Positions 46,188-64,000 of a stretch of 64,000 bases of DNA are shown piece after piece. Location of the stretch: positions 124,001 to 188,000 of the forward strand of contig JAQZBQ010000009.1 in NCBI GenBank assembly GCA_029237825.1. The letters are read 5' to 3'. The DNA comes from Bacteroidota bacterium. GTDB lineage: Bacteria; Bacteroidota; Bacteroidia; B-17B0; Aurantibacillaceae. The notes under the pieces were generated by a model. That model was not told the DNA's origin. It saw only the letters and a program-made list of their open reading frames with translations, and did not search any database. The translations under genes and the position numbers were made by a program. The stretch's first letter is position 1. Each line of letters starts with the position of its first letter.

Positions 46188-49100
46188 ATGAAAAATAAAC
46201 TTCTGATAATTTACTCTTTACTATTTTTGCTTTCTGCTTCGTTTAGTTATGCTGCGAAGGAAAAAAGCAATACACGGATTAATAAGAACCAAATTACAAT
46301 TGGTGGATCGATAGCTGTTATGGATAATAAATATCCAAACATCAATGTATCCAACACGGCTGTAGTTGTGGGTTCTAATGGGAAAATAACTCTTGGTTTA
46401 GACAATTATGCTAATAGTTTAGATTATTTAAATACAAGTACAGGGACAACTAATTTTGACATAAAGGTCGGCCTCAATGTAGTGTATGTTACTACAGCCG
46501 GTGTAACTTCTTATAAAACTCTTGAATTATCAATAAATCACCAAAATACTACAAGTTCACCATTTACAGTAGATAAAAATATTGCGATATTTAAAGATGC
46601 ACATATACTAACAGCTAGTATATCTTATGTAAAGAAAAACGGAGCAGCAGTATTACCTTCTCAATTACCTTCAAACTTATATCTTGAAGCAGAAATTGAA
46701 ACAGAACGTTATTATGAACTTAATGTCGCCGACATACCTACTCTGAATCACAACTATCTTACTGCTTCAAATGAATTGGAAGTATATTGGAATTCTGTTA
46801 CCGGCGGTGAAGAGTATGAATTAGAGTGGACCTATGTAAATAGTTTTTCAAGTTCATCTACAGCTTACGATTACAATCCTTTATCTGCTACTCCAATCCC
46901 ATCTTCTATAACTAATTTAGCTTATGCAGGTCTGGAATTTACTTTCCAGGAAAACGCAACAAGGATCCGAACTTCGAAAAACAGTTTCAAAATACCTTTA
47001 AACTATGAAAGGGGTTTAATAGTTTATAGAATCAGAGCTATTGGTAAAGATAAAAGTGATATTAATTATGAAACCATCGGAAATTGGTCTATTGATCAGT
47101 CAAATACAATTCCAGTGCTTACAGTAGCATCGTTAGGCACCAACGACTTTTACGAAATTTTAGTTGGGCATCAAGAGGATAAAAACTGGCAATATACAGC
47201 AACATTTGCCGAAGATGGCAAGAAGAAAGACATAATTGGATATTTTGACGGTTCATTAAAAAGCAGGCAAACCGTTACAAAAACCAACACAGAAAATGTT
47301 GCCATTTTTGCAGAAACTATTTATGACCAGATAGGAAGGGCAACAGTACAGTTTTTGCCCGCGCCCTCCAGGGATTATACCTCCAAACTTGATTTCTATG
47401 AAAATTTTAACGTTAGTAAAAATGTCATTATTAGTGGAATTAACCTTCCTTATGGAAAAAACGATTTGATTCCTCCGGTTAGTGCCGGATCATGTCCTTA
47501 TTCGCCAGGGCCGGTTTTAACTAATACAAATAATGTATTAGCTAATGGCGCAGGAGTTTATTATTCAACAAAAAATGACAAAAAAGATAATCAGGAAGCT
47601 TATATTCCTGATGCACAGGAAATACCTTTCAGTACCACAATTTATACGCCGGATAACACGGGTAAAATTAAATATCAATCTGGTGTAGGGCCTGATCATA
47701 AAATAGGCAGCGGACATGAATCTAAATATCTTTATGGTGACGCGGATCAGGAAGATTTGGATAAATTATTCGGATCAGAAGCTGGTTACAAGGAACGTTA
47801 TAAAAAAAATTATGTAATTGATCCTAACGGACAAATTAGCGTTTCTTATTTGAACACAGAGGGAAAAGTTGTTGCAACCGCATTGGCAGGAAATAGTCCT
47901 GGCAATGTTATTGAGGTTGGTGATTTTACTCCAACGGTAATCGACAAAACATATCTTGATCATCATAGTCAAAATTATACGTCTGTAAACGGTGTAGAAA
48001 ATGGTGCACTAATATTCCGGTATAAGTTGGTTCCAACTATTGATGATATATATACATTTACATATGACCTAACTATCCCCCAGTTTAATGATATTTGTAT
48101 CCCAAGTTTCTGTTATGATTGTATCTACGATTTGGATATAACTATTATGGATGAATGCCAAAACGTGATTTATAATAAAACAGATCCAGTAGGCTTACCA
48201 ACAGGGATAAGGGATTATACCTGCGGTGCCCCGATTCATTATACAAGTCAAACACCAAGTTTTTCGCCTCCATTTAATGTAAGTCTTTTAGCAGGTAAAG
48301 AGTATTTTTTAACTAAAACCTTACGTTTAAATGAGCCGTCAATGAATGACTATTTGAATCATTATATAGCTAATAGTAGTTCGGCCTGTGTAAAAGACAT
48401 TAACTTTTTTAAGGATAAAGAATTGCTAGATATGGATCAAAGCGGATGTGGACAAACATGCGCAGAATGTGTCGATAAAGTTGCGGCATATTATCCTTTA
48501 CATAATGATCCTGATAAAGCAGATCCTACAAAACCTGCATATGATCCAACATATATATACATGAGTCAGCACCAAAAAGAAATTGCCATAAAGAAATGTA
48601 ACGAACCCTGCGATCCTATTTCTTTGTGTTCTGTACAGTTTGAAACGATGTTAACAGATGTGAAACCTTATGGTCAATATGCACAATATGATAATGCCGC
48701 AGGTGTTTTCAATGCCTCAACTCATGAGCTATCTGTATTTAACCCTAATAATTACCTGAGAATAAATTCCTTATATGGTGCAAACCATGGAGGTACCTCA
48801 TTTCCTAATGCAAATGCCGGAAACCCGTTTGGCGTGAACTATGACATGACAAAACAGGGTTTTTGGAAAAATCCTGAATTTTACAATAAGTATCAACATA
48901 GTTTCACTTTACCAACATCTGTTGATTTCTTAAATCCTGCGGTAGGAGAAAGTAATACAAATTTCTTTAACCCAGATGGGAGTGTTACAAAAGTAAGGAT
49001 TACTCAATTATCATCAGGTGCTTATTACCCTCAAATAGATATTAATACTAGTACATGGTTAAAATCTGATGCGCAAGGTTTATGGACATACGCTCAAAAT

Positions 49101-52100
49101 TTAACAAACTTAACCGATTTTATTAATGCCTATAATGCCAATCCTTATTGGGCTTTTTCATTGGTAAAAAATCATCCTGAATTTAATTATTTTTTAGATT
49201 GCGATCGTCAGGGAAATCCAGTATTATATACTACCGCACCTATCGGATACACTAGTGATGATTTTGACAGGGATTTGAGAGCTGAATCTTCTATCGCAAC
49301 GGCATCCGTTAGTCCACACTGGACTTTAAATATGGATAATACAATTAATGATTTAGTTGAATCTGATCCTTATTTTAAATCAAGTGCCAATACATTTCCA
49401 GCTGTTGGTCCTTATTTTAATCTTAAAGCTCTTTTGAGTACTCGATTGCAAAATTATCAAGGTACAGGTAAAACATTAAAACAGGTAGTAGCTGAAATGT
49501 ATTATGTTAATAATATGTATTATAGCGGATGTGCTAATGCTGTATTTGGAGCTGATAATGTAACATGTCTTTCGAATGTTGGTGGTACAAATGTTACCTA
49601 TCAAATTTCCAATGACAATCTTAACAAACAATGGCAATCATATCGAGAAATGTATTTGTCTGAAAAACAAAAATTAATAGCAGAGCAATCACATTATATT
49701 GCTAATAGAACTTATAGTATAAATGGGTTTATGAATAATTATTATAACGGCGCTATTGGCAACTCTAATTTCTCCCATATACAGTCATACACAAATTATG
49801 GCTTTAATATTTTCCCTAATTACACTGGTCTCATTCCACCTTGGCATATTTATACAACACCTTTTTTATGGCCAGATTATACCTCTGGCGATCATGGTAG
49901 TAATGGCGATGATGCATTTCAACCCCCCTTCTCAACAGGACATTTTGATTTTGGTAGCCCTTCATCTATTTATCACAGTTCAAAATATTCAAGTAAAATA
50001 AAACGTTTTCCAGATGTACAGGAACTTTATAACGCAGTAGGCGGAGGCTCCAGTGATCCATCAGAGCTTGAAACAGCTGCAAATAATGCTATTTATTTTC
50101 AAACTGGACAGTGCGCCATCTTTAAAAAACTAGAAACATTTCTTTCTGTTTTAGCTGGAAATGGATCCTTATTTAGCTTTGGTAATACAATTCCCCTTGT
50201 AACTGAGCCGTCTTTTACACAAGACTTGTATAATGCAATTCTTGAATGTCATGGCTTCCCCATGCCTATTAATGAGTGGCATCAAATTGGCTTAAAACCT
50301 TCTATTTTTGGTGGCAATCTATTATTAAAATTTTATGATATTTCTAATCCTTCATCACATATACCCTTAAATGCTGATATATTACTAACGCCAAGTTCTA
50401 TTGTGAATTGGAACGATATCAAAATGTTTTCAAATATTAATTATAATGGAACAATAGTTTCAGGAAGTGGCACACAAAGTGCATTTGGTATAAAGGCTAT
50501 ATTACAACCTAACCCAAATGTTGCTTATACAAATGTTTTATTTAATGGCACTACCTGCATCCAAAATAATTGCGTTCCACCTGCTGCAGAAATCTGTAAA
50601 CCTACTCAGCAAGCTACAGAGCTACAGAATTTTTTAAGTGCAGCGATGACAGATTATAATTATTCGTCACAAGTTACGAATACATTTAACCTTGGTGATC
50701 CTTTAAATAGCAGCTCTCAGCTCTTCAGTGGTTTGGTAAGGTATCCTTTTGGTAATACCCCGGTCACGCAATCTCCTATCTCGCATAGTGTCACCATAAA
50801 TCCTTTAGCTGAACAAATTCAATTGCAAGGTCAAAACATTGGTGCCTCAATAGACTGTCCAAATGGCATCAATATTAATTTCGATTTTAGTGTTTTAGCT
50901 CCTTCTACAGGTGCAATATTGGCAGGCGCAGTAGGGTTTTCAAATATAAAAGTTGATCCTTTGACACCTAACCAATTTACTGTAACTGTTCTATACAATA
51001 ATCCTGCACCTTCAAAAAAAGCGATTGTTTCATTCAATTATGGCGGTTGTAGTAAATGTGGGGATCATCCCTCAAGTTCTTGCAGAATTTACAAACTCTC
51101 TACATGTACTGAATATATTCCTCAACAATGTAACACAGATGGATACAACACAGCGGTTCAACTCGAAAATTTATTGGAAGAATTGGTAACTATTGATTTT
51201 AGCACAACAGTTCCTACTTCTAATTTAACCAGCTATACTACTTTACTTGCTAGTCAAATCGGTACGAGCACGAATAATGTATCTGCACTTTATTCAAGCA
51301 CTTATGATGGAGCAACTAATATAAGTACTAATATATACACATATTTGTTTCAGAACACAAGCGTAAATCCTACAGTTACTAATTGTTCTATAGTTCTCAA
51401 ACTTGATCAGTCTGGTCAACTTTCGGGTCCTCCACCAGTAAATTTAAATGGTTATTCATTTTCGGAAATTAGTATTCTATCACCATTTTCTGGTGTTTTT
51501 GGTGCGGTAGGAACAGAACCAAAATATGGCACTAGATTCGAATTTAAAGGCAATGCTTCTTGTTTGGATATGGAAAATTGCAGTGCATGCATAGGAGAAA
51601 CTATTTACAAAGAAGACTTTGAAGCTTATACAAATGCTGCTGGAGTTGCTAATTCCGTGCCATTGGGATTTGAAACAGAATACTTGATTCCCCCAGCAAC
51701 AACAGCTGTTCCAGGTAGCCAGGTTTATGGATGTTCCCCTTTAGCTTTAGGAACTCAGGAATTTAATATATTTTCGACTGGTAATTGTAGCTTTCAAGGC
51801 TTATTAGACCACACAGGCAGTTTAGTTTCTTCAAGGAATGTATTAGCCAGTTATATAGGGTATTACCCTTTTAATTCAAACGTTAGCAAAACATTGTGGC
51901 AAAATAAAATTGTAACACCTAGTAATACTGCAACTATTAGTACAACAGTGGGGAAATCATACGAAATTTCCGCATTCTATAATCTCTATAAAGGAATTGA
52001 TGGAAAAATTGAATTGGTTGTTAATGATGGTGTTCAGGATTTTATTTTAACAAGCGCTGATTTAAATATTCCATCAGGAATAGTCGGGTTTTCAGGCTGG

Positions 52101-55100
52101 AAGAATATTAAAGGCACGTGGCTCGCGAATTCTTCTAATATACAAATTAAAATAAGAACAACGCCTAGAGAATTAACTCCCGGTGGTAATACGAGTCTTA
52201 ATATGGAGCTTGTATTTTTTGATGATGTTACAGTAAAAGAAAGAACCTGTAATCAAACTCCATTCTACACATTGCCTTCAGAGCCACCTAATAATGATTG
52301 TGCTGATCAATTAATGAATATCGCCTTATCTAACGCAACGCAGGCTTATGCTTATTATATAAATACCGTAAAAGAAAACTTCAAAGACAGTTATCGTAAA
52401 AAATGTTATGAAACTCTTGAGATCCTAAAAGGTACTTCAAGAACGTCCGAACATCATTATACTTTATATTATTATGATCAGGCCGGCAACTTAATTAAAA
52501 CAGTTCCACCTGAAGGTGTCGAAGAAATTAAATTAACAGATACTCCTACAGGAGGATCATTAACTTACGGTGAGTTAATTGAAAATGACAGGGCTAACAA
52601 AACTCATACTTTTTTTACCACGCACCGCATGGCTACCCGTTATGAATACAACTCTTTAAATCAATTGATAAGACAGCATACTCCTGATAATGAAAACCTT
52701 GATCTTTTTTATTCATCTGTTAATGCAGGAATTCCACCATCTTTTCTGTCACAGGATATGGATTTCACAAATGGCACACAAGGCTTTATGGTTGGTAATA
52801 TTGGGGCAGATGGAAAGATCTATTCAACCAATGATGGTGGAAATACGTGGACGCCAACTTCGGCATTTGGGTTAGGAACTATCACCGACATTGAAATTAC
52901 TGGTACTACTGCTTTTGCTGTGACGTCAGACGGTCTGATTTTAAAATCCATAAATTACTCTGCGACAAACCCTAGTTGGCAGCCAATTATTTTACCAGGA
53001 AACAATACCATGAGTTTTACGAATATTGAATTTGTTGGTGTCACGGGTGTGGGATATATTATCGGGAAAACAGGTATGTGTATCTACACACTAGACGCAG
53101 GGTTAACATGGTCTAATCCAATTAGTTTAGATGGTGTACAATATGATTTAAATAATCTGGACTTTAAACTTGACGCCCCAACCAATAAATGGATCGGTGT
53201 TGTTGTTGGAAAAACAGGAACAGTGATTTACAGCTTGGATGCTGAAGATCCAAACTCCTGGGTCGACAAAAGCTACCTGGCCGGCCAGATAAACGTTAAC
53301 GATGTTGAGATTATCCAAACTAACAATGGCACAGCAGTGGAAATTAATGCGTTAATTACAGGTGAATTACATGCCGGTGTTGCTACTAGTGGTGTATCTT
53401 ATATATTAAACGATATTCACAATAATACTACAACTCTTTCCTCGTTACAATTATTAAATAATAACGGTAGTAAGTTTGGTGCAATTGCTTCCGACTATTA
53501 TCTCGCTGGAACAACATACACACAGGATCATTATATAGCAGGATTATCCGCAGGGGTAGGCCCGGTATTATATAAAATTCATAGTGTTCCGGCCTCAGCT
53601 CCAGTAATAACACAAATTCCTTTAACAGGAGTTACTTCTACAACACAACTTAACGATATAAAAATTACAGGCTCTACAGCAAACTCAAATGCGGTGTTGT
53701 TTGGTTGTTTTGATACTGGCAAATTGTTAAAAGCAGTTGTAACAACTAATACGGCCTTGGCCCCTATTACACTGAATGTGTCGCCAGGCGTAGTAAACTC
53801 CTCAGTTCTCAACAGGCTGGTAATAGACCCTAACAATGTAGTTACAACCAGTGGTTTAATTGTGGGTGACGGAACGATCCTGAAATTTGATCATAATGGA
53901 AGCACAACAACGTCATCATCCGCGAGCAACATTATCCTTGCTCCTTTAAAATCCATAGCGACAGCCAAGGACGGTTCGGGCAGAATATATGCCGTTGGAG
54001 ATAATGGAACCATTATTTATTCAAACAACAACGGTGCCTTATGGCAAATTTATGACAACACAATTATCAATTCCAATTTAAAATCTGTGGAATATGTTTC
54101 GGCAACGAATGGTGTGTGGATTGTGGGTGATAATGGTTATGTTGGTGTTATGGATCCTTTGACTAACTTAATTACGCCAAAAAATACAGGGGTTACTGAA
54201 ACGTATTATCATGTTATCAAAAAACCAAACAATATTAACCAGATATTATTAGCGGGAAATGATGGAAGTAACTCGATTATCAAACAATATAATATATCGC
54301 CTATACCTGTCGGCTTTACAACTGATCCGTATAATAATACAGGGTCACCCGTTAACAAAATAGCTTTTGCATCAAATACCGATGTATTTGCGGTTGGCAA
54401 CAACGGCCTAGTTTTGAAATCCACCAATGCTGGTAATACTTTTGCAGCATTCGCTACCGCGCCGATTTCTGCGGCTAATTTCACAGACGTTTCGTTTACT
54501 GATCAGTTTAGAGGTTATATATTTGGAGATAACAATACATTGTATTTAACCAATGACGGTGGTATTACCTGGGTAACCAAAACGCTAGCTTCGGGAAGTA
54601 ATGTAACAAGTGTTTATAATTTTGGAAGCGGTAACGTTTTAACTTCCGGAACAGGGAGCCCTAATCTCCAAAAGATTACCGATCAATCAAACGATCATTC
54701 TTCGCGCTTTTTTTATGACGAGTTAGGTCGACTTATTATTTCACAGAATGCCAAACAGTATAATAAAATTCCACATGCATATAGTTATACCAAATATGAT
54801 GGGCTGGGACGTATTACCGACGTCGGCGAAATTGCCGGGGCCACTTTGGCGGATCCTGCCACGTTAACTATAGTTAACCATGGAATTATCCCTATTAGTT
54901 CATACAATAGCTGGTTATTGATGGGAGCAAAAACCGAAGTCACATCAACGAAATATGATGCAGCTGTAGCAAATACCTGTGGATTCGTCCAGGATAATTT
55001 AAGAAAGCGTGTAGCGGCTACTTATCTCGACAGCGATGATAATTTAACGAACGGTTACTTGTACGCCTCGTATTACTCATACGATATACATGGAAATGTA

Positions 55101-57620
55101 AAATCACTATTACAGGAAAATCCGGCCATGCCTACCGGGCATACCTGTAAAAAAATTGATTACCAGTATGACCTGATTAGTGGGAAAGTGAATAAAGTTT
55201 CATATCAAAAAGGTGAGTTGGATGCTTTTTATCACGAATATAGTTATGACGCTGATAACAGGCTTACTAATGTAAATACAAGTAAGGATGGGATTATCTG
55301 GCAGCAGGATGCGAAGTATTTTTATTATCTCCATGGGCCGCTAGCCAGAACTGAATTTGGGCATGAAAAAGTGCAGGGTATGGATTATGCCTATACTTTA
55401 CAGGGATGGATCAAAGGTGTCAATAGTGCCATATTGGATAAATCGAATGATATTGGTAAAGATGGGGTAGGAACAGGTGCGTCAATTCAATATGATCATA
55501 ATTCTTTGGGCGTAAATGGCTTTGTATCTTATGATGCCGCAGCATTTGCATTAAATTATTATACAAATGATTATGTGGCAGGTGATGGTTCTAAAAATAC
55601 ATCTGCTCTAATGTTTAATAGCGATATTACTAATAATCCTTTTGCATCAAATACTGCTAATAATTTGTATAACGGTAATATTTCATCCATGGTCACTGCA
55701 ATTAAAGAGGGCAATAGTGTGAGCGGTTTAAATACTGTTCCAATGCTCACTGCATATAAATATGACCAGCTTAATCGAATAAAAACGATGGCTGCTTATA
55801 AAAATATTGCAGGAAATATGTGGCAGGGTACAACATCAGGTTTACAGTACGCCCAGGAATTTGAATATGATGCCAACGGCAATATCACTACACAAAAACA
55901 ACGTAATGAGCTTGGTGCATTGACGGAAGACTTAACATATAACTACCAGACGGATGTGACCGGAAAAAAAGTAGCGAACCGTTTATACAGCGTCGATGAT
56001 GTGGCTCCTCTTATTGCGGGTGTACTTGATCAGCCTCAATTTGTTAACGGCCCGGTGAGTGGGGTTGGTTTAGGGCAGGTAAACCAATTAAATAACTATG
56101 CTTATGATGAGTTAGGGAACCTGAAAAAAGATGCTTCTGAAAAAATAGACAATATAGACTGGACCGTTTATGGTAAAATAAAGTCCATCACACGATCTGC
56201 TACCGCGGGATCTGAAAAAAATATGGAATTTGCCTATGATGCAAGTGGTAACAGGGTTGCTAAAACATCATTTGCGAACGGAGCACCCCCTGATGAACAT
56301 GTTACAACCTATTACGTACGTGATGCCCAGGGAAATGTCATGGCGACTTATGATTACAAACAGGTATCCACCGGGCCAACAGCTCCTCGTATATTAACCT
56401 TACAGGATCATTCGTTATACGGAAGCTCAAGGTTAGGCATGTCTACATATCATAACGATAATGACAATTTAACGGCATCTTCTTCCAAATACAATACAAG
56501 TACTCCAGTATATACCCTTAATATTGAATCAGGAAGAAAGCAGTTTGAGCTTGGCAACCATTTAGGAAATGTTATCACAGTTGTATCTGACCGGAAATTA
56601 CCAGTTGAAGGAACACTGGGTTCGGGTGTCGTTGATCATTATGAAGCAGACATAATTTCGGCAACAGATTACTATCCGTTTGGTAGCCCAATGCCTGGAA
56701 GGTCGTATAGCAGCAGCGCCAACCGATACCGCTACACTTTCAACGGGAAAGAGTCGGATGTAGAGACCGTTGGTACTGGTGGCGGGACGCAGGACTATGG
56801 GTTCAGGATATATAATCCTGCTTTAGGTAAGTTCTTGAGCGTCGACCCTTTAACAAGCAAATATCCATTTTACACGCCATATCAATTTGCTGGTAACAGT
56901 CCTATTTGTTCAATTGATGTTGATGGTTTAGAGGGTTTTGTAGCGACCGGTGCTAATGGACATGGTATGGTTATAAGCGTCGAACAAGCAAATGAAATTA
57001 ATAAACGAGTTACAGTAAGTGCATTTAAAGTCGGCTTCTCAGAAGAGCTGCCTAAAAAATTTGTTGAACACTATGCGTATGGAAATAGCACGCTAGTTAC
57101 TTTAAATGAAACAGAAATGGCTGGTTTAAATGTTACTCATGTGGGGTTGGGATCAGGCAAAATAGGACAACAGGTTAATCCACAAATTGAAGGTATTCTG
57201 CCGGGAGAATCCAGAAAAATAAGCTTCACTGCTGATGATGGTGTTGCTGGTACTTCTGGTACGTTAGGTCAGTTCACAATTCATGGTGAGGGAACTTTTA
57301 CTTCAGATGAAAGTGGAGGCTGGTCATTCACTGGTAAAATGATATTTATGGATGTTTGGGATTTTAATAAGGAAACTCCTGAAGAAGAAAAAAGCAGGGT
57401 CGAACAAACGGGTCGAGCTCGAAGTGATAATGGAAAGCGCCAAACTGAATTCGCTGCCGATCACTTACCAGGGAAACCCTTTGGAGTTTTGAGTAAAGTT
57501 GTTGATATAAAACAGACAAGTAAGGATAAATCTTTTGACTGGTTTAATGGGAAAAAAGAGGGAGGTGAAGGTAATAGAGATACTAAAGTAAATTCTAAAT
57601 ATAATGATGAAACAAATTAA
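46188..57620 (+). CDS. RHS-repeat polymorphic toxin with colicin M-like C-terminus
   Basis: 3810 aa with a signal peptide (about residues 1-22). The N-terminal 2150 residues are beta-rich shell. About 2185-2830 hold YCF48/BNR-type propeller repeats (IYSTNDGGNTW, LYLTNDGGITW). YD repeats follow (RFFYDELGRLIISQNAK). The RHS core end DYGFRIYNPALGKFLSVDPL is at about 3536-3555, then a variable C-terminus from ~3581. That end reads LGQFTIHGEGTFT, GGWSFTGK and DVWDFN (D3722, W3724, D3725, N3727), matching the LGNITLKTEGTLT and DKYDFN pattern of colicin M, a lipid II hydrolase. The exact His-Arg after DFN is not clear. The next gene encodes a lipoprotein that fits an immunity role. Confidence 0.8.
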   Translation: MKNKLLIIYSLLFLLSASFSYAAKEKSNTRINKNQITIGGSIAVMDNKYPNINVSNTAVVVGSNGKITLGLDNYANSLDYLNTSTGTTNFDIKVGLNVVYVTTAGVTSYKTLELSINHQNTTSSPFTVDKNIAIFKDAHILTASISYVKKNGAAVLPSQLPSNLYLEAEIETERYYELNVADIPTLNHNYLTASNELEVYWNSVTGGEEYELEWTYVNSFSSSSTAYDYNPLSATPIPSSITNLAYAGLEFTFQENATRIRTSKNSFKIPLNYERGLIVYRIRAIGKDKSDINYETIGNWSIDQSNTIPVLTVASLGTNDFYEILVGHQEDKNWQYTATFAEDGKKKDIIGYFDGSLKSRQTVTKTNTENVAIFAETIYDQIGRATVQFLPAPSRDYTSKLDFYENFNVSKNVIISGINLPYGKNDLIPPVSAGSCPYSPGPVLTNTNNVLANGAGVYYSTKNDKKDNQEAYIPDAQEIPFSTTIYTPDNTGKIKYQSGVGPDHKIGSGHESKYLYGDADQEDLDKLFGSEAGYKERYKKNYVIDPNGQISVSYLNTEGKVVATALAGNSPGNVIEVGDFTPTVIDKTYLDHHSQNYTSVNGVENGALIFRYKLVPTIDDIYTFTYDLTIPQFNDICIPSFCYDCIYDLDITIMDECQNVIYNKTDPVGLPTGIRDYTCGAPIHYTSQTPSFSPPFNVSLLAGKEYFLTKTLRLNEPSMNDYLNHYIANSSSACVKDINFFKDKELLDMDQSGCGQTCAECVDKVAAYYPLHNDPDKADPTKPAYDPTYIYMSQHQKEIAIKKCNEPCDPISLCSVQFETMLTDVKPYGQYAQYDNAAGVFNASTHELSVFNPNNYLRINSLYGANHGGTSFPNANAGNPFGVNYDMTKQGFWKNPEFYNKYQHSFTLPTSVDFLNPAVGESNTNFFNPDGSVTKVRITQLSSGAYYPQIDINTSTWLKSDAQGLWTYAQNLTNLTDFINAYNANPYWAFSLVKNHPEFNYFLDCDRQGNPVLYTTAPIGYTSDDFDRDLRAESSIATASVSPHWTLNMDNTINDLVESDPYFKSSANTFPAVGPYFNLKALLSTRLQNYQGTGKTLKQVVAEMYYVNNMYYSGCANAVFGADNVTCLSNVGGTNVTYQISNDNLNKQWQSYREMYLSEKQKLIAEQSHYIANRTYSINGFMNNYYNGAIGNSNFSHIQSYTNYGFNIFPNYTGLIPPWHIYTTPFLWPDYTSGDHGSNGDDAFQPPFSTGHFDFGSPSSIYHSSKYSSKIKRFPDVQELYNAVGGGSSDPSELETAANNAIYFQTGQCAIFKKLETFLSVLAGNGSLFSFGNTIPLVTEPSFTQDLYNAILECHGFPMPINEWHQIGLKPSIFGGNLLLKFYDISNPSSHIPLNADILLTPSSIVNWNDIKMFSNINYNGTIVSGSGTQSAFGIKAILQPNPNVAYTNVLFNGTTCIQNNCVPPAAEICKPTQQATELQNFLSAAMTDYNYSSQVTNTFNLGDPLNSSSQLFSGLVRYPFGNTPVTQSPISHSVTINPLAEQIQLQGQNIGASIDCPNGININFDFSVLAPSTGAILAGAVGFSNIKVDPLTPNQFTVTVLYNNPAPSKKAIVSFNYGGCSKCGDHPSSSCRIYKLSTCTEYIPQQCNTDGYNTAVQLENLLEELVTIDFSTTVPTSNLTSYTTLLASQIGTSTNNVSALYSSTYDGATNISTNIYTYLFQNTSVNPTVTNCSIVLKLDQSGQLSGPPPVNLNGYSFSEISILSPFSGVFGAVGTEPKYGTRFEFKGNASCLDMENCSACIGETIYKEDFEAYTNAAGVANSVPLGFETEYLIPPATTAVPGSQVYGCSPLALGTQEFNIFSTGNCSFQGLLDHTGSLVSSRNVLASYIGYYPFNSNVSKTLWQNKIVTPSNTATISTTVGKSYEISAFYNLYKGIDGKIELVVNDGVQDFILTSADLNIPSGIVGFSGWKNIKGTWLANSSNIQIKIRTTPRELTPGGNTSLNMELVFFDDVTVKERTCNQTPFYTLPSEPPNNDCADQLMNIALSNATQAYAYYINTVKENFKDSYRKKCYETLEILKGTSRTSEHHYTLYYYDQAGNLIKTVPPEGVEEIKLTDTPTGGSLTYGELIENDRANKTHTFFTTHRMATRYEYNSLNQLIRQHTPDNENLDLFYSSVNAGIPPSFLSQDMDFTNGTQGFMVGNIGADGKIYSTNDGGNTWTPTSAFGLGTITDIEITGTTAFAVTSDGLILKSINYSATNPSWQPIILPGNNTMSFTNIEFVGVTGVGYIIGKTGMCIYTLDAGLTWSNPISLDGVQYDLNNLDFKLDAPTNKWIGVVVGKTGTVIYSLDAEDPNSWVDKSYLAGQINVNDVEIIQTNNGTAVEINALITGELHAGVATSGVSYILNDIHNNTTTLSSLQLLNNNGSKFGAIASDYYLAGTTYTQDHYIAGLSAGVGPVLYKIHSVPASAPVITQIPLTGVTSTTQLNDIKITGSTANSNAVLFGCFDTGKLLKAVVTTNTALAPITLNVSPGVVNSSVLNRLVIDPNNVVTTSGLIVGDGTILKFDHNGSTTTSSSASNIILAPLKSIATAKDGSGRIYAVGDNGTIIYSNNNGALWQIYDNTIINSNLKSVEYVSATNGVWIVGDNGYVGVMDPLTNLITPKNTGVTETYYHVIKKPNNINQILLAGNDGSNSIIKQYNISPIPVGFTTDPYNNTGSPVNKIAFASNTDVFAVGNNGLVLKSTNAGNTFAAFATAPISAANFTDVSFTDQFRGYIFGDNNTLYLTNDGGITWVTKTLASGSNVTSVYNFGSGNVLTSGTGSPNLQKITDQSNDHSSRFFYDELGRLIISQNAKQYNKIPHAYSYTKYDGLGRITDVGEIAGATLADPATLTIVNHGIIPISSYNSWLLMGAKTEVTSTKYDAAVANTCGFVQDNLRKRVAATYLDSDDNLTNGYLYASYYSYDIHGNVKSLLQENPAMPTGHTCKKIDYQYDLISGKVNKVSYQKGELDAFYHEYSYDADNRLTNVNTSKDGIIWQQDAKYFYYLHGPLARTEFGHEKVQGMDYAYTLQGWIKGVNSAILDKSNDIGKDGVGTGASIQYDHNSLGVNGFVSYDAAAFALNYYTNDYVAGDGSKNTSALMFNSDITNNPFASNTANNLYNGNISSMVTAIKEGNSVSGLNTVPMLTAYKYDQLNRIKTMAAYKNIAGNMWQGTTSGLQYAQEFEYDANGNITTQKQRNELGALTEDLTYNYQTDVTGKKVANRLYSVDDVAPLIAGVLDQPQFVNGPVSGVGLGQVNQLNNYAYDELGNLKKDASEKIDNIDWTVYGKIKSITRSATAGSEKNMEFAYDASGNRVAKTSFANGAPPDEHVTTYYVRDAQGNVMATYDYKQVSTGPTAPRILTLQDHSLYGSSRLGMSTYHNDNDNLTASSSKYNTSTPVYTLNIESGRKQFELGNHLGNVITVVSDRKLPVEGTLGSGVVDHYEADIISATDYYPFGSPMPGRSYSSSANRYRYTFNGKESDVETVGTGGGTQDYGFRIYNPALGKFLSVDPLTSKYPFYTPYQFAGNSPICSIDVDGLEGFVATGANGHGMVISVEQANEINKRVTVSAFKVGFSEELPKKFVEHYAYGNSTLVTLNETEMAGLNVTHVGLGSGKIGQQVNPQIEGILPGESRKISFTADDGVAGTSGTLGQFTIHGEGTFTSDESGGWSFTGKMIFMDVWDFNKETPEEEKSRVEQTGRARSDNGKRQTEFAADHLPGKPFGVLSKVVDIKQTSKDKSFDWFNGKKEGGEGNRDTKVNSKYNDETN
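56672..56693. repeat. 22-nt block shared with the orphan RHS module (copy 1)
   Basis: This segment inside the main RHS gene, encoding the YPFGSPM turn before the core, is identical over 22 nt to the minus strand of 60395-60416. Flanking bases differ immediately on both sides. It is a likely crossover point for exchanging toxin ends. Confidence 0.75.
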
Positions 57621-58173
57621 AAATACGAAGTTTTCCTTCTATATCCTTGTTTTTTTGTTTTTCAGTTGTGAAATAAATTCAGTAGATGAAAGTAAGATAA
57701 AGAATTATCCACTATTAATAGATAGTCTGACGAAGAGTATAAAGATCGAATCTTTTGAAACAAATAGCTTCAGTTATGATTACATATATCCGAGGCATAG
57801 TTATTTAGTACTTTCAGGTTCTAATAATGAACTACAGTCCTATATAAAAAGGATAGGTTTATTGACATATTCTCCTGAAAATGTTAAGGCGAATACTTCA
57901 AAAACGCTTCAAGAATACAACGCTAAAGAGTTATGGAGTATTAATGGTTTCGAATTACAAGAAAAAGATAGTTTAATCAGAGTAAAGATTGGTATGCCAC
58001 TTAGAGGCGAAGCTCAATATGCTGCATATTTTAATAGCGCAGTTCCTAATAAAGTATTCCAAGACTTCCACAATAATTGGAATGGAAAAATAGTTGCATA
58101 TGTTGTGAATGAAAAGTGTGTTCTTTTTATTGACGAACTAAGTGATCCGACCTTTAAAAGAGGTTTTAAATAA
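57604..58173 (+). CDS. Probable immunity lipoprotein for the RHS toxin
   Basis: 189 aa, beginning MMKQIKN. A signal peptide ends in lipobox FFSC (Cys about residue 22), so the protein is anchored in the membrane facing the periplasm. It overlaps the toxin gene by 17 nt, the usual place of an immunity gene. Location in the periplasm agrees with a toxin acting on lipid II there, as for the colicin M immunity protein. No family motif recognised; immunity is inferred from position. Confidence 0.65.
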   Translation: MMKQIKNTKFSFYILVFLFFSCEINSVDESKIKNYPLLIDSLTKSIKIESFETNSFSYDYIYPRHSYLVLSGSNNELQSYIKRIGLLTYSPENVKANTSKTLQEYNAKELWSINGFELQEKDSLIRVKIGMPLRGEAQYAAYFNSAVPNKVFQDFHNNWNGKIVAYVVNEKCVLFIDELSDPTFKRGFK

Positions 58174-58207
58174 AATTGTGGATTGTTTTAAATACGACCG
58201 TTATAAA

Positions 58208-58236
58208 AAACCGCCAGGCTTAAAGCTTGGCGGTTT
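58208..58236. terminator. Rho-independent-like terminator after the RHS operon
   Basis: AAACCGCCAGGCTT and AAGCTTGGCGGTTT form a long stem with one G-T pair, beginning about 35 nt after the immunity stop, preceded by A-rich and followed by T-containing sequence. It should end the 29.55-58.17 kb operon and may work in both directions. Confidence 0.75.
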
Positions 58237-58336
58237 CTATTTAGTAGCCACATTTAAAAATATGGCGATAGCCTGTAATACAAAACCAATCAGCAGGATA
58301 ACTTTTTGAATGTGGATCTTGGAGATAACATCTTAC

Positions 58337-58495
58337 CTAATCTACGATCCTAAATTCTAGTGCCGAAGTCTTGACCTCCTTCACTAATTTCTTTATCGTT
58401 TTCTTTCCATTAAAGCCGTTCTGTTCTGAATGAAAAACTTCGATACACCGAAGTTTTTCATTCAGAACAGCATATAGACCAAATTTTGTAGCCAT
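58337..58495 (-). CDS. Possible 52-aa ORF across the inverted repeat
   Basis: From the ATG at 58495 to the TAG at 58337 the frame is open. It encodes a basic peptide with GKKTIKKLVKEVKTS near its end. It includes the whole 22-bp inverted repeat, so its protein sequence is constrained by that structure and it may be only a chance frame or the remnant of a longer gene. Confidence 0.2.
   Translation of the reverse strand: MATKFGLYAVLNEKLRCIEVFHSEQNGFNGKKTIKKLVKEVKTSALEFRIVD
58421..58470. repeat. Perfect 22-bp inverted repeat with 6-nt loop
   Basis: Bases 58421-58442 are the exact reverse complement of 58449-58470; the loop is ATACAC. The stem starts with CTGTTCTGAATG. There is no long T tract after it. 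It may be a transcription barrier between convergent operons, or a small palindromic repeat element. Confidence 0.7.
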
Positions 58496-58590
58496 TCAGG
58501 CTGATTGAGCCGATTTCAGCGGGATTATTGATGGATTACAAGATATATTTTACCAAAATAAAAGAGAGTTTTTTAGGCTCTCTTAACTTA

Positions 58591-59340
58591 TTAGTAAAAA
58601 ACAGTATCCTTGATTAAGAGGTTGTTTTTCTTATAATATTCATTATTATAATAAAGAAAGTAATTCACATCGTTCACATCAAAATCGGGAAAATTAGCTG
58701 GGTCGCTGGCTAAGAATTTGATTCTTTGCAAAAATTCCCTATAATGATTTCCTTCTAGTTTTCCTTGACATTCTAGTGAATACTGTTCTAAAATCTCAAA
58801 ATAGTCTTCATAATCATCGTTCGTGATTTTTTGTCCGCTATGCAATTGGTAAATGCCTTTCACTACTCCATCAAATTCATATAACTTATCACCTCTAATG
58901 TTTTTTACTATATAACTTTTAAAATCAAACAGTGTTTTGTTTTCAGTAGCTAAATTTTGTAACCATTCTAAAGAGCTTTTTGGTAAATATTTTTTTGAAT
59001 AATATTTACTTTCACCTTTATGCTTATTATTATAGTTTACAAATACTACTCCTTTAATTCCCTCCAATTGACTAATTATAGAACACAAAGCCATTTCTCT
59101 AATTATTTTCATTTTAGTCTGGCTATAAAATTCTAATTCAGGCAGTTCCATTTCAATATTAAGAACAGTATCATTACTAACAAATACTTTTGATGGATAA
59201 TATTGTTTATTCAGGATAGAATCACAGACTTTAATTTGACTTAGAACATTATCTTTAGCCTGTTCATCCTTTGAATTTTCATCACACGAAAAAAAAACAA
59301 ACGATAAAAACAAAAAACAAATTATTTTATGGTCGAACAT
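58591..59340 (-). CDS. Lipoprotein, probable immunity partner of the orphan RHS module
   Basis: 249 aa. A signal peptide with lipobox FFSC (Cys about residue 19) is followed by an acidic mixed chain with no known motif (SLECQGKLEGNHYREFLQRI near residues 190-210). It lies 22 nt after the orphan RHS C-terminal gene on the same strand, in the position of an immunity gene. A membrane-anchored periplasmic product suggests that the toxin acts outside the cytoplasm. Confidence 0.55.
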   Translation of the reverse strand: MFDHKIICFLFLSFVFFSCDENSKDEQAKDNVLSQIKVCDSILNKQYYPSKVFVSNDTVLNIEMELPELEFYSQTKMKIIREMALCSIISQLEGIKGVVFVNYNNKHKGESKYYSKKYLPKSSLEWLQNLATENKTLFDFKSYIVKNIRGDKLYEFDGVVKGIYQLHSGQKITNDDYEDYFEILEQYSLECQGKLEGNHYREFLQRIKFLASDPANFPDFDVNDVNYFLYYNNEYYKKNNLLIKDTVFY

Positions 59341-59362: not shown

Positions 59363-60397
59363 TTATTGTTTCTTAAAAGGATTGAAACTTCTCATTGCAC
59401 CATTCCTTTTATTAATATTATTACTAATTGAATCAGATTTTCCTTTCGCAAAGTCCACCGAGTCAGATGTCGAAGGTATTGGCATACTCATTATCAGTCT
59501 AAAAACCCCGTTACTCAACGATAATCCAATAGATTTTGACGTAGACTTGTTAAGGGGCAATCTAACCTTAGGAAAGCCTTGGAATAACGAGTTCATTCTA
59601 TTTTGATACGCTACACTTCCACCATAAGCCAATCCAATTGAACCATAAGTATATTGATTTTTATTGTCGGTTGCAAAACTACCGCCAATTGACACTGGAT
59701 TGAAACTAGCATTTACATCGAAATTACTATTGCTATTTATTATGATGTCCATCTGATTACTATATTGTCCCACACCTATCATCGTACCATCAAAATAAGA
59801 TACACTACCACTGAGACCCTCTCCAGCACCTCCTTCGATATCAATTTCCATTGCTGTCACGACAAAATCTTTTTTAAAGGTATTAATATTATTTGGATTT
59901 TGAGGCCATACATATGTCTTATAGCTTACAGTACCGCCCACGAGCCCCGTACCCCCACTACCAGCTACAGAAACACCCCACATATCAAAACTAGGATTAT
60001 GCATTTTAGGACTTACGTTTGCACCTCCATATGTTGTTGCCGCAGCTAAAGGATTACCTGTTGTTTTGCCATCACATGTTATGCATGCACTAACTTCAAC
60101 TTCGTCTGCTGACGATGTGTATGATTGACCATTTCCTAAATCAACACTTTGACCTTTTTTTATAGGTGGTTCACCATCCGCACCTGATGGGTCTGCAAAA
60201 TAGATAGGATTATTATTAAAACAAGCATAAGGACTTTGCCCAGATTTAACGACGGGGTCAGGATTCCATCTACGACCTAACCTACTATCATACTCCCAAT
60301 ATTCGGCCGTCATAGCCCCTTGGAAAATCTCGTCATCCTTCTCTTGCCCATTCATCCCATATTTGTACTCTGGAGTATTAAAACTACGTTCATACAT
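59363..60397 (-). CDS. Orphan RHS C-terminal toxin module (truncated RHS gene)
   Basis: 344 aa from the ATG at 60397. The first 75 residues are the end of an RHS core: YKYGMNGQEKDDEIFQGAMT, then YDSRLGRRWNPDPV and FNNNPIYFADPSGADGEPP. The remainder is a Gly/Ser-rich beta domain (~90-310) with no cysteine pattern or nuclease motif I can name. The frame extends only a few codons upstream, to a stop at about 60435, so the thousands of residues of shell are absent. It has no signal peptide and cannot be delivered alone. It is a stored cassette that could recombine into the main RHS gene through the shared 22-nt block. Confidence 0.7.
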   Translation of the reverse strand: MYERSFNTPEYKYGMNGQEKDDEIFQGAMTAEYWEYDSRLGRRWNPDPVVKSGQSPYACFNNNPIYFADPSGADGEPPIKKGQSVDLGNGQSYTSSADEVEVSACITCDGKTTGNPLAAATTYGGANVSPKMHNPSFDMWGVSVAGSGGTGLVGGTVSYKTYVWPQNPNNINTFKKDFVVTAMEIDIEGGAGEGLSGSVSYFDGTMIGVGQYSNQMDIIINSNSNFDVNASFNPVSIGGSFATDNKNQYTYGSIGLAYGGSVAYQNRMNSLFQGFPKVRLPLNKSTSKSIGLSLSNGVFRLIMSMPIPSTSDSVDFAKGKSDSISNNINKRNGAMRSFNPFKKQ

Positions 60398-60416
60398 TGG
60401 GCTACCAAACGGATAG
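60395..60416. repeat. 22-nt block shared with the main RHS gene (copy 2)
   Basis: The minus strand here equals 56672-56693 over 22 nt. It lies exactly at the 5' edge of the orphan RHS module, as expected for a recombination junction. Confidence 0.75.
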
Positions 60417-60487
60417 GGATGTCTGCTTAAATTCAGTTACTTATAGGATTTTAAAGAACGATTTTTGTCAAGATACCACTTTTTTAC

Positions 60488-61582
60488 CTAAGCAAAAACA
60501 CTTTTTTGAACTTCCATATTGCTTATTTTTTCAAATACCATGTCAGTGTGTTCGTCTACATAACTTTGGGCAAACTCCACATACCTGAAAAACTCTTTAC
60601 TGTTGGCCGAATGTCCTGAGATCTTCCTTACCACCTGATCGGGCATACCCAAACGCAGCATGGTGGTAATGGCAGTTCTTCGCATGGTATGGGTGGTGAT
60701 GTGGTCTGCCAATGTATAATGCTGTCGTTTAGCCTTGTTTTTATATACCACACATTTTACACCCCGCTTTGTACGGTATTTAATTAAGGGCTCAGTAAAA
60801 TCCAGGTATTTTGCAAGTTCTTTGAGGCATTTATTGAGCCAGGCATTACTTTGAAGCGGCAATAAGGTTTTTTGTTTTTTGTGGTGTTTCATTAAAATAT
60901 CCACCGCATAGGCTGGCAACTTAATGGTGGTATTGGTATTTGTCTTTATAGAAGTTACTTTTAAATAATGGGTATTATTATAAAACTGCAAATTTTCGGC
61001 TTTCAGCTTCATTAGATCCGAAAAACGCAAAGCCACCGTGCATCCGAAAATAAAAATATCTTTTACTTTTAGTAAATAGTCAGGTAATTTGGTGTTCAGA
61101 TTTGGATCGTAGATCAGGTAATTGAGTTGTTCAGGTGTAAGCACAACAATATCCACCTCCTCAGTAGGAATATAGAATTTTTTGTGATAATCGCCAACCT
61201 GGATGTTAAGTTCGGTATTCAAATAATTAAAAAAAGTTCGAAGTCCCTTTACGATTAAGCCTACGTAATTATCATAAAAATCCTTTTTAGTATATAGGTA
61301 ATCTGTAAAATCGGCAAAGAATTTTTTATAGTATTTGGCAGCCTGTTCTTTTTCTTTGGTTGTTAAATTGTTGATGAGAAAAAGCTTTAGGCCATAATTA
61401 GTTTCTGTTACAAATTCCCGTAACTGTTTTTGTATATAAATATAATTATCAATGGTGGATGACCTAATACGCTTACCGTCTTTCTTAATTCGTGTGCCTT
61501 TACCGGTATCTTTAATTAATTTTGCGTACAATTCAAAGAATTGATCGGTTGTTAGATATTTGGTTTGTTTGGTGATCCGCAT
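60488..61582 (-). CDS. Tyrosine recombinase (phage-integrase family)
   Basis: 364 aa. An N-terminal SAM-like domain (~10-125) is followed by a catalytic domain with R186 (ALRFSDL), probable K213, H298 and R301 (HTMRRTAIT), H324 (SGHS) and Y334. All catalytic residues are present. It starts 1 nt after the gspF stop, on the same strand, and is followed by the orphan RHS cassette. It resembles Bacteroidota transposon and element integrases more than XerC/D. It may have carried in the RHS block; no att repeats were identified. Confidence 0.85.
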   Translation of the reverse strand: MRITKQTKYLTTDQFFELYAKLIKDTGKGTRIKKDGKRIRSSTIDNYIYIQKQLREFVTETNYGLKLFLINNLTTKEKEQAAKYYKKFFADFTDYLYTKKDFYDNYVGLIVKGLRTFFNYLNTELNIQVGDYHKKFYIPTEEVDIVVLTPEQLNYLIYDPNLNTKLPDYLLKVKDIFIFGCTVALRFSDLMKLKAENLQFYNNTHYLKVTSIKTNTNTTIKLPAYAVDILMKHHKKQKTLLPLQSNAWLNKCLKELAKYLDFTEPLIKYRTKRGVKCVVYKNKAKRQHYTLADHITTHTMRRTAITTMLRLGMPDQVVRKISGHSANSKEFFRYVEFAQSYVDEHTDMVFEKISNMEVQKSVFA

Positions 61583-61583
61583 A

Positions 61584-62756
61584 TTACATTCCCTCCAATC
61601 CTGAACTCATTTTAAACAACGGCGTGTACATGGATATCAGGATAAATCCAACTAAACCACCCAGGATCACTAAAAATAGAGGTTCGATAATTTTTCCAAT
61701 CACTAGCTGTTGGTGTTCTATTTCTTCGGCATACTGCTGGTTGAGTTTTTCAAAGATCACTTCAGGAGCATTCACTTCTTCTGATACTTTGATGAGTGAA
61801 ACCAGCTTTTTAGGAAAAATAGTATGTTGCGCTAAGCTTTCATGTAGTTGCTTGCCCGAATACACATCTTTGATTACGGTATCCAAAGCAAATTCTATTG
61901 GATAATAACCGATCATGTTTTTTACCAGGTCGAGCGCATCGATCAATAAGACCTTAGAGCCTAGCAGTAATTTCATCGACTGACAAAAGCGTGCCAGGTA
62001 GATCTTTTTGATCAGTTCATTGACCACAGGTACTCTTAAGAAAAACCAAGATGTGTATTTTCGGAACCAGAGTTTTTGCTGTTGCGTTTTATGAAAAATA
62101 ATTCCTGCAATAACCAGTATGATCAAACTGTAAAATATAAGTCCTGATTTTGCACTTACCTTAATTAATAGTTGAGTGGTCATTGGCAACTCTGCTCCTG
62201 TGTGCTTGAAAATATCTGTGAACATTGGTACCACAAACGACAACATAAATTGTACGATCAATACGCTCATGGTTAAAACCACAACAGGGTAGGTGAGGGT
62301 GCTGATCACCTGCCTTTTTAATTTAATAGCACTGGTATAAAATTTCCCAAGTTCAATTAAGACCTCCGGTAACTTTCCTGATTCTTCCCCGATCTTAATG
62401 CTCTGGTATTCATATACAGAAAATGTTTTTGGATGTTTATGAATGGCTTCCCAAACGCCCTGACCTGAAATGATATCGTCTTTGATCTGTGATAGTATGG
62501 CCTTGTGTTTTTTAACCTTGAGCTGATCTTCAATGATCTCTAAAGCAGTTTTAATATCAATTCCGGATGACAATAATAAGCCAAGTTCAGAATAAAAAGC
62601 CTCCTTTTGGGTTTGCCCGAATTTTTTTTCAAACAGAGAAATGTCCTTATTCAGTGAATCGGATAATTTCTCTACCATAGAGTTTTCGGCCTCCCGGTTC
62701 ACAGGCGCTTTCTTTTCTGGCTTTTGCTTGTATTTGGATAGATCAATACTGCTCAT
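61584..62756 (-). CDS. gspF: GspF/PilC-family inner-membrane platform protein
   Basis: 390 aa. Two GspF domains are visible: the first (~55-180) with FYSELGLLLSSGIDIKTALE and EYQSIKIGEESGKLPEVL, the second (~255-375) with RFCQSMKLLLGSKVLLIDAL and LVSLIKVSEEVNAPEVIFE. Membrane segments are near 158-180, 205-225 and 360-382. It is the platform for pseudopilus assembly by GspE. It lies on the strand opposite gspE/gspD and 32 kb away, overlapping a minor pseudopilin gene by 14 nt. Confidence 0.88.
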   Translation of the reverse strand: MSSIDLSKYKQKPEKKAPVNREAENSMVEKLSDSLNKDISLFEKKFGQTQKEAFYSELGLLLSSGIDIKTALEIIEDQLKVKKHKAILSQIKDDIISGQGVWEAIHKHPKTFSVYEYQSIKIGEESGKLPEVLIELGKFYTSAIKLKRQVISTLTYPVVVLTMSVLIVQFMLSFVVPMFTDIFKHTGAELPMTTQLLIKVSAKSGLIFYSLIILVIAGIIFHKTQQQKLWFRKYTSWFFLRVPVVNELIKKIYLARFCQSMKLLLGSKVLLIDALDLVKNMIGYYPIEFALDTVIKDVYSGKQLHESLAQHTIFPKKLVSLIKVSEEVNAPEVIFEKLNQQYAEEIEHQQLVIGKIIEPLFLVILGGLVGFILISMYTPLFKMSSGLEGM

Positions 62757-63258
62757 CAGGTGGTAATAAAACTAAAGTCGCATTTAAGGTACTGAATGCG
62801 TCATATTCTTTATGGAAAGATACACGAAATTTCTGAGTCTGGAACAGGACCTCGCATTCAAAATTTTGGATTAAAGAAGAGGCTGTTCCGGTTCCTGTTT
62901 TCAGGAAATCAAACTTCGGTTTTTGTGATCCAAGATTAAAAGTGTCCGTATGCGATTTGAATTTCAAAAGCATCTTTTTTTCCGCCAGTTCTAATTCAAC
63001 GAAGTTGGAATCGGTTTTAAAGGCAAGGGTATGTTCTCCTGTTTTTTCAATGGTTTGTGACCGGTCTGCAATAATAAAGAGGGCTTTGTTCAATTGATTG
63101 TAGTCCGAAATGAATTCACTCTGATCGGAGTAATTAATAAACAATTGCTGAATCTGGTTAAAGCCCATAAAAGCAAATACCACCAGGATGCCGGTAAGCG
63201 TCATCGTGATCAATAACTCGATCATGGTAAAGGCTTTTATCTTTTGTTTAATTGGCAT
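62743..63258 (-). CDS. Minor pseudopilin (GspJ-like)
   Basis: 171 aa if started at the ATG at 63258, which gives a leader MPIKQKIKA cut before FTMIELLITMTLTGILVVFA, with Glu at +5. An upstream ATG at 63279 would overlap the previous gene by 32 nt and is less likely. The soluble part is beta-rich, ~140 residues. Size and position before gspF suggest GspJ. Confidence 0.7.
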   Translation of the reverse strand: MPIKQKIKAFTMIELLITMTLTGILVVFAFMGFNQIQQLFINYSDQSEFISDYNQLNKALFIIADRSQTIEKTGEHTLAFKTDSNFVELELAEKKMLLKFKSHTDTFNLGSQKPKFDFLKTGTGTASSLIQNFECEVLFQTQKFRVSFHKEYDAFSTLNATLVLLPPDEQY

Positions 63259-63595
63259 GCACCAGTTTTTGAATTTCACATATTTTTTTTTCTGTTTTGC
63301 CTGATATTGAAATTTTCAGAAGCACACAATCAGGATAAGCCTCGGAGACCGTGGATGTTTTTTTGACAGTGAATTCTTCTTCTTTGAAGCTCTTGTCGAA
63401 ATAATCATGTGTCCGTTCACTTTCCACCAGGTAATGGTTGGCAATTTCATTAGCCTTTAATTTTAAGAAAGGTTGCGTGTTTTGTTGAATATTGATATAG
63501 ATAGTCACGCCCAGTGCAGAAGTGAAAGAAATAATAACAATGGCTATTAAAACTTCTGGTAGCGTATTACCTTTAAATTTTTTGTTTAAAACCAT
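63248..63595 (-). CDS. Minor pseudopilin (GspI-like)
   Basis: 115 aa. Leader MVLNKKFKG, then NTLPEVLIAIVIISFTSALG, with Glu at +5 and Asn instead of Phe at +1. The short soluble domain has two Cys (DCVLLK and KICEIQ) that could pair. It overlaps both neighbours by about 10 nt. The small size fits GspI/GspH. Confidence 0.7.
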   Translation of the reverse strand: MVLNKKFKGNTLPEVLIAIVIISFTSALGVTIYINIQQNTQPFLKLKANEIANHYLVESERTHDYFDKSFKEEEFTVKKTSTVSEAYPDCVLLKISISGKTEKKICEIQKLVHAN

Positions 63596-64000
63596 TGTGC
63601 GCAGGAGCTATGTTTGTTCTTTTCTGTGAACCAATGAGGCACGGTTAAATTGGCGCCATACCGTTTAGGGTCGATGAGGCAGTTCAGTAAATGGTTCTCA
63701 TATACACCGGAAGGTGTTTGCAATAACAGGGTGCGACAAAAAAAAGAGCCATACAGGTTGCCTTGTGCATCTGCATAATCGGAGCTATATAGATTACCGA
63801 TCAATTCAAATTGTTTGTTTAACCTAATCATCATTCGGGATGACTGCGATTTGATATTGGCAGCCAATAAACCACCCTTAAATTTACATTGAGTTCCAAA
63901 GAAAATACCTCGCACAACCGGATTAGTAGTTGATGAAGATGAAGTGGAATAAACGCAGAATGAAGAGGGGTAATTAAATTCACATTCGTCTTCAGTAATG
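63586..64000 (-). CDS. Secretion/pilus component, N-terminus outside the window
   Basis: The frame is open from 64000 down to the stop at 63586 (138 codons); an internal GTG at 63915 gives a shorter version but is unlikely to be the true start. It contains KGGLLAANIKSQSSRMMIRL, SSDYADAQGNLYGSFFCR and CLIDPKRYGANLTVPHWF, which I do not recognise. It overlaps the GspI-like gene by 10 nt, so it belongs to the pseudopilin operon; a large minor pseudopilin or tip protein is possible. Confidence 0.55.
   Translation of the reverse strand, partial: ITEDECEFNYPSSFCVYSTSSSSTTNPVVRGIFFGTQCKFKGGLLAANIKSQSSRMMIRLNKQFELIGNLYSSDYADAQGNLYGSFFCRTLLLQTPSGVYENHLLNCLIDPKRYGANLTVPHWFTEKNKHSSCAQWF

Follow-up and report, generated by a model that had tools for sequence, protein, structure and literature searches.

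The window (the whole 64,000-nt stretch of Bacteroidota DNA that was analysed) carries a giant RHS/YD-repeat gene, an inverted orphan RHS tip downstream of it, and a tyrosine recombinase gene that lies on the same strand as the orphan and directly upstream of it. The two RHS elements share an exact 22-nt inverted repeat. We describe this repeat, the recombinase and the related loci of other Bacteroidota, and consider whether the toxin tip of the RHS gene can be exchanged for the silent one.

The RHS locus and its inverted repeat

The following features are the basis of the analysis.

46188 to 57620, plus strand: full-length RHS/YD-repeat gene (3810 aa) with a signal peptide and a C-terminal TIGR03696 core, presumed to be the expressed copy
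56672 to 56693, plus strand: proposed exchange site within the main RHS gene, codons YPFGSPM (repeat search and genome-wide copy search)
56677 to 56684, plus strand: 8-nt core CGTTTGGT of this site, candidate strand-exchange (overlap) region (homologous position in the orphan-main pairs described below)
56679 to 57617, plus strand: tip of the main gene, RHS-associated core and colicin-M-like toxin domain (profile matches)
57604 to 58173, plus strand: putative immunity lipoprotein of the main-gene tip, lipobox LFFSC, overlapping the RHS stop; no family match
58591 to 59340, minus strand: putative immunity lipoprotein of the silent tip, lipobox FFSC; no family match
59363 to 60416, minus strand: silent orphan tip, consisting of the site, an RHS-associated core and a unique toxin-like tail (TIGR03696 match and genome comparison)
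60395 to 60416, minus strand: proposed exchange site of the orphan tip, inverted copy, 22 nt (repeat search and genome-wide copy search)
60404 to 60411, minus strand: 8-nt core of the orphan's site (orphan-main pair alignment)
60488 to 61582, minus strand: tyrosine recombinase, 364 aa (PF00589, 3.4e-13)

The TIGR03696 core is matched above its cut-off in the main-gene tip (2.9e-12) and in the orphan (1.6e-8). The main-gene tip also matches Pfam Colicin_M at 2e-4, under the cut-off of that family, and colicin M structures at 1e-4 in a phmmer search. The tail of the orphan has no relative among 395 sampled genomes of the class and corresponds to no named toxin in Pfam or NCBIfam beyond the RHS core. 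With the core in both tips, differing tails and adjacent lipoprotein genes, the locus belongs to the RHS polymorphic toxins; the tips are presumably toxic and antibacterial, and the lipoproteins are their likely immunity proteins. A preliminary description of this DNA had credited the orphan with its own core end, toxin-like tail and lipoprotein, and this is borne out. The orphan open reading frame (ORF) spans 59363-60397; there is no start codon ahead of the ATG inside the 22-nt block, and an in-frame TAA lies about 7 codons upstream. The genome contains one full RHS gene and one orphan only, and no second RHS partner for the orphan was found in it.

Between the two convergent immunity genes, in a gene-free stretch (58174-58590), lies a perfect 22-bp hairpin (58421-58470, z -8.1), possibly a bidirectional terminator or the remnant of an insertion sequence.

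The 22-nt block CTATCCGTTTGGTAGCCCAATG occurs at 56672-56693 (plus strand) and at 60395-60416 (minus strand). The repeat search of the window returned the two copies as a 100% complementary inverted repeat, with 3701 nt separating the arms. The identity pointed out in the preliminary description is thus exact and inverted, and the block has exactly two copies: a third was absent from the 3.55-Mb genome even when up to 3 mismatches were allowed. Both copies encode YPFGSPM in frame. Because the sites share these codons, the same reading frame would be retained after an inversion.

The recombinase and its family of loci

About 80 nt separate the stop codon of the recombinase gene from the site of the orphan. 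The catalytic set of the enzyme (R186, K213, H298, R301, H324, Y334) is complete and invariant in an 11-member alignment (A1). Its other profile matches are to distant XerA/XerC-type recombinases, far below cut-off, and the integron integrase profile scores 0.0089, likewise far below cut-off; a sequence profile retrieved no solved structure of a relative at E<=1e-5. On its other side the recombinase gene is adjoined by pseudopilin and type II secretion F genes (61584-63600), a neighbourhood that is also present in genome G019 (locus L004) with a different tip.

Homologues of the recombinase were gathered from 60 relatives, from 87 family members and from a scan of one genome per species. The latter contributed 80 loci from Chitinophagaceae, Flavobacteriaceae, Sphingobacteriales and others. 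Profiles of the recombinase and of the tip start were searched in all six frames of the loci. The recombinase clade is present in 19 of the 395 sampled genomes of the class (about 5%). The distinct recombinase loci number 83 and belong to Chitinophagaceae, Flavobacteriaceae and other Bacteroidota; 66 of them have RHS tips beside the recombinase, and 12 of the 17 loci that lack a tip are contigs ending 0-255 nt from the recombinase.

The median distance between recombinase and site is 127 nt, and three arrangements recur. In the type represented by the window, the nearest site is typically 50-142 nt past the recombinase stop and co-directional with it. In the Chitinophagaceae type it is divergent, 67-135 nt ahead of the recombinase ORF, and in the Flavobacteriaceae type the recombinase lies between two convergent tips. 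Some sites are about one cassette away from the recombinase, outside these close ranges. Loci carry 1-8 orphan cassettes, most of them a single one. An exceptionally large repertoire is that of genome G013, where eight tandem silent tips follow one recombinase (L028) and further tips are found on small contigs (C30, C50, C54).

Among orphans that share a stretch with a full-length RHS gene, 26 are in inverted and 3 in direct orientation to that gene, and 20 of the 21 such loci have at least one inverted orphan. An inversion system requires this orientation.

Many contigs stop within about 250 nt of the recombinase (L037, L038, L045, L048, L071, L077, L078, L079, L092, L100, L102), as do G447:C22, G118:C4, G467:C2 and G451:C51. 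Ends at the expected position of the site are as expected if assemblies break at repeated sites or at sites of mixed orientation. Contigs that end at sites (e.g., L068, L099, L105) fit inversion and plain repeats alike and were not used as proof.

Site boundaries, inversion and competing explanations

Across dozens of genomes the orphans begin at one fixed position, the xPFG codons. All 29 orphan-main pairs from the same locus are identical at positions -2 to +5 around the F codon (CNTTYGGN), three third-codon positions included, and at these third-codon positions pairs from different loci agree in only 33-48%. The overlap region of a tyrosine recombinase (6-8 bp) needs identical bases across the exchange point. 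Upstream of about -13 the identity between orphan and main gene is at background level, and downstream it decays gradually through the core. About half of the pairs share a block of 11-24 nt, which we judge too short to be upheld by homologous recombination; many others share 50-150 nt.

We checked whether the block is kept for coding reasons alone, and this was not supported. Coding constraint is insufficient to account for the identity of the sites, because the synonymous positions concerned vary among other RHS paralogues of related genomes. A control is provided by G017, where two full RHS genes lie on one contig: one shares the orphan's site over more than 50 nt and the other differs at synonymous positions. 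Chance or codon conservation alone was rejected as the source of the identity on the basis of the genome copy search, the pair alignment and the paralogue comparison. The cassettes of one subgroup, in L030 (3490-3535, 4980-5024, 8220-8264) and L090 (near 8517), have a much longer left arm in common (CGTCGGTATTCGAACCTGCTC...), which resembles a tRNA T-arm; ARAGORN predicts no tRNA there, and a tRNA origin was discarded.

An inversion is directly visible in G061, a genome from the same family as the window genome. Its assembly has 2 contigs, and the ends of the 5.65-Mb contig overlap by about 24 kb. Outside the repeat, the two ends align colinearly in both flanks of the overlap: the 13.2 kb next to the recombinase contain 0 mismatches, and the opposite flank contains 2 in about 6 kb. 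The 5.2 kb between the recombinase-proximal orphan and the main RHS gene is inverted between the two ends, with 0 mismatches; all other differences are single indels such as long-read errors produce. The breakpoints fall in ACTATGCCTTCGGCATGG... / ACTATGCCTTCGGCATGGAAATGCC..., at the recombinase-side site and at the inverted copy of it that the main RHS gene carries. The tip ending in NKTTKEIETAYPQY is an orphan at one contig end; at the other it forms the C-terminus of the main RHS gene. The opposite orientations in the overlap indicate that both existed in the sequenced material and that the inversion swaps main-gene and silent tips.

A comparison between species points to exchange over longer times as well. 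The tips are nearly all different, and several that are silent in one species form the main-gene tip in another. The main tip of L039 resembles an orphan tip of L074 (74% identity), further such pairs are L054/L073, L018/L039, L094/L099 and L112/L088, and the colicin-M-like main tip of the window matches orphans in L062 and G214.

We consider it likely that the locus is a recombinase-driven, site-specific, shufflon-like switch of RHS toxin tips, by which the cell is apparently able to swap the toxin that it fires. The recombinase would act on two short inverted sites, one within the xPFG codons where the RHS-associated core of the main gene starts and one where the silent cassette starts; recombination would flip the intervening 3.7 kb. 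The two copies of the site share the reading frame, so that the giant RHS gene would then end in the silent cassette (core, toxin and immunity gene), and the formerly expressed tip with its immunity gene would move into the silent slot beside the recombinase. The preliminary description had proposed a silent cassette with an exchangeable tip and an inversion of about 3.7 kb; both proposals are well supported, the latter by the comparable inversion in G061. It had overlooked the recombinase, and the homologous recombination that it invoked as the mechanism is probably wrong.

Several observations weigh against a recombinase-driven switch. The presumed catalytic role of the enzyme is deduced from linkage. 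G061, whose recombinase is 46% identical to that of the window, is the sole assembly showing both orientations. Alternative C-termini arising by inversion were seen there and not in the window genome, nor was an alternative orientation seen in the window's own species; that the window locus itself inverts is presumed. The perfect repeat in G061 could also serve homologous recombination, and no clear symmetric binding arms were recognised around the core. Finally, no RHS tip could be detected at three loci whose flanks are long enough (L022, L044, L089), and the recombinases there, of the same clade, may serve another target.

Of the competing explanations, the one that survives best is an integron-like capture array, in which the recombinase chiefly acquires and rearranges the tip-immunity cassettes of a chromosomal array and trades tips with the main gene only incidentally. 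Up to 8 cassettes are lined up co-directionally (L028), which would fit, as would the cassettes that follow the recombinase gene in one group, as in integrons; tips are also rarely common to genomes, which points to acquisition. Against this, most loci have a single orphan, and its full-length partner gene consistently lies inverted and convergent. We regard capture as the chief function as rather improbable, although tip switching and cassette capture are not mutually exclusive.

Ordinary RHS tip displacement, with a leftover or reservoir orphan exchanged through core DNA by RecA-dependent homologous recombination and the recombinase as a bystander, is unlikely, somewhat more so than capture. 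Orphan tips and polymorphic-toxin cassettes are already known at such loci (PMC3482391). Many main-orphan pairs share 50-150 nt, and the G061 repeat has 46 perfect bp within 261 bp at 77% identity. Several pairs, however, share 11-22 nt only. Displacement of the classical kind is recognised by a boundary set by homology and by an orphan downstream in the same direction, whereas here the boundary is fixed at xPFG and orphans are inverted at 20 of the 21 loci. Homologous recombination is thus an unlikely mechanism, because a recombinase is located at the site, the blocks can be as short as 11-22 nt, the boundary is fixed in dozens of genomes, and the arrangement recurs together with the recombinase in distant families.

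A recombinase-associated immunity array (of the rAID or polyimmunity type), in which the orphan immunity gene matters and the tip is a passenger, is very improbable: XerC/D-type recombinases have been published beside polyimmunity loci (PMC3482391) and rAID arrays (PMC12247911), and the leaders described below are seemingly built for transcription, but rAID arrays hold orphan immunity genes without toxins whereas these cassettes hold intact toxin tips, whose reading frames run uninterrupted for about 300 aa and match that of the main gene, the main-gene tip is swapped in G061, and the reading is weakened because passenger tips would decay.

Leaders of the silent cassettes and biological meaning

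Two further elements precede the silent tip in the window.

60448 to 60460, minus strand: boxA-like element CGTTCTTTAAAAT in the leader of the silent cassette (the same string is in the 16S rRNA leader of carrier G111)
60468 to 60475, minus strand: weak promoter-like -7 element TATCTTGA, located ahead of the boxA-like string (TA..TTT[GA] is enriched in the leaders of the group)

Motifs were counted in the 150 nt upstream of 110 orphans. GTTCTT[TA] is present in 58 of 110 leaders (2.9 expected) and GTTC[AT]TTGA in 26 of 110 (0.1 expected), the latter in none of 22 main genes. The string is similar to the boxA elements of antitermination. The promoter-like motif TA..TTT[GA] occurs in 50 of 106 leaders (25.5 expected). 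The assembly of the window genome contains no rRNA, and 16S leaders of other carriers were compared instead: that of G061 holds the boxA-like CGTTCATTGAAAA, and in carriers L160 and L161 the boxA-like string is not within 500 nt upstream of 16S. An in-frame ATG is found in 26 of 111 orphans, with 19 expected from shuffling, which is no clear excess of start codons. Because the count is close to the shuffled expectation, there is no sign of selection for translation of the orphans.

These leaders suggest that silent cassettes may be transcribed and left untranslated, with antitermination letting the polymerase reach the immunity gene. It is conceivable, and we propose it tentatively, that each cassette has its own promoter and a boxA-type antitermination leader, by which the polymerase crosses about 1 kb of toxin DNA that is not translated and reaches the immunity gene, so that the cell stays immune to any tip switched on by its siblings while the recombinase switches the single expressed one.

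The closest parallel is the shufflon of plasmid R64 (Rci, pilV), where a tyrosine recombinase gene also lies by inverted sites and inversion gives a constant N-terminal part alternative C-termini (PMC3414803). The window likewise has a locus-encoded tyrosine recombinase and short inverted sites that flank the presumably invertible segment. It differs in that the product is not a pilus adhesin but a secreted RHS toxin, paired with an immunity gene, that the site lies in conserved xPFG codons, and that the host belongs to another phylum. A constant RHS body, a variable tip with its immunity gene and nearby silent tips are shared with tip displacement in RHS and other polymorphic toxins (PMC3482391); for these, recombination with cassettes is described and no recombinase is named, whereas the loci described here have a dedicated recombinase, a fixed site and inverted orphans. 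In rAID and polyimmunity arrays a tyrosine recombinase likewise adjoins an array in which the orphan immunity genes are co-oriented and motifs lie between them (PMC12247911; PMC3482391), but the cassettes described here include toxin tips in register for RHS fusion. Integrons also have a tyrosine recombinase beside a cassette array (as in L028); here, in contrast, the sites are inside coding sequence, at its 5' end, and the partner is an inverted full-length gene.

Silent polymorphic-toxin cassettes and recombinases beside immunity-gene arrays have thus been known (PMC3482391; rAID, PMC12247911). In open-access full text we found no published description of a recombinase that exchanges RHS tips via a fixed site in coding sequence. 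Changes of polymorphic toxin tips are usually credited to cassette recombination without a named enzyme. If a dedicated recombinase and a defined site are indeed responsible, toxin switching would be programmed and reversible and would take place within a clone. This raises the question of how switched cells avoid killing their unswitched kin, or being killed by them, to which the boxA-like leaders may be the answer.
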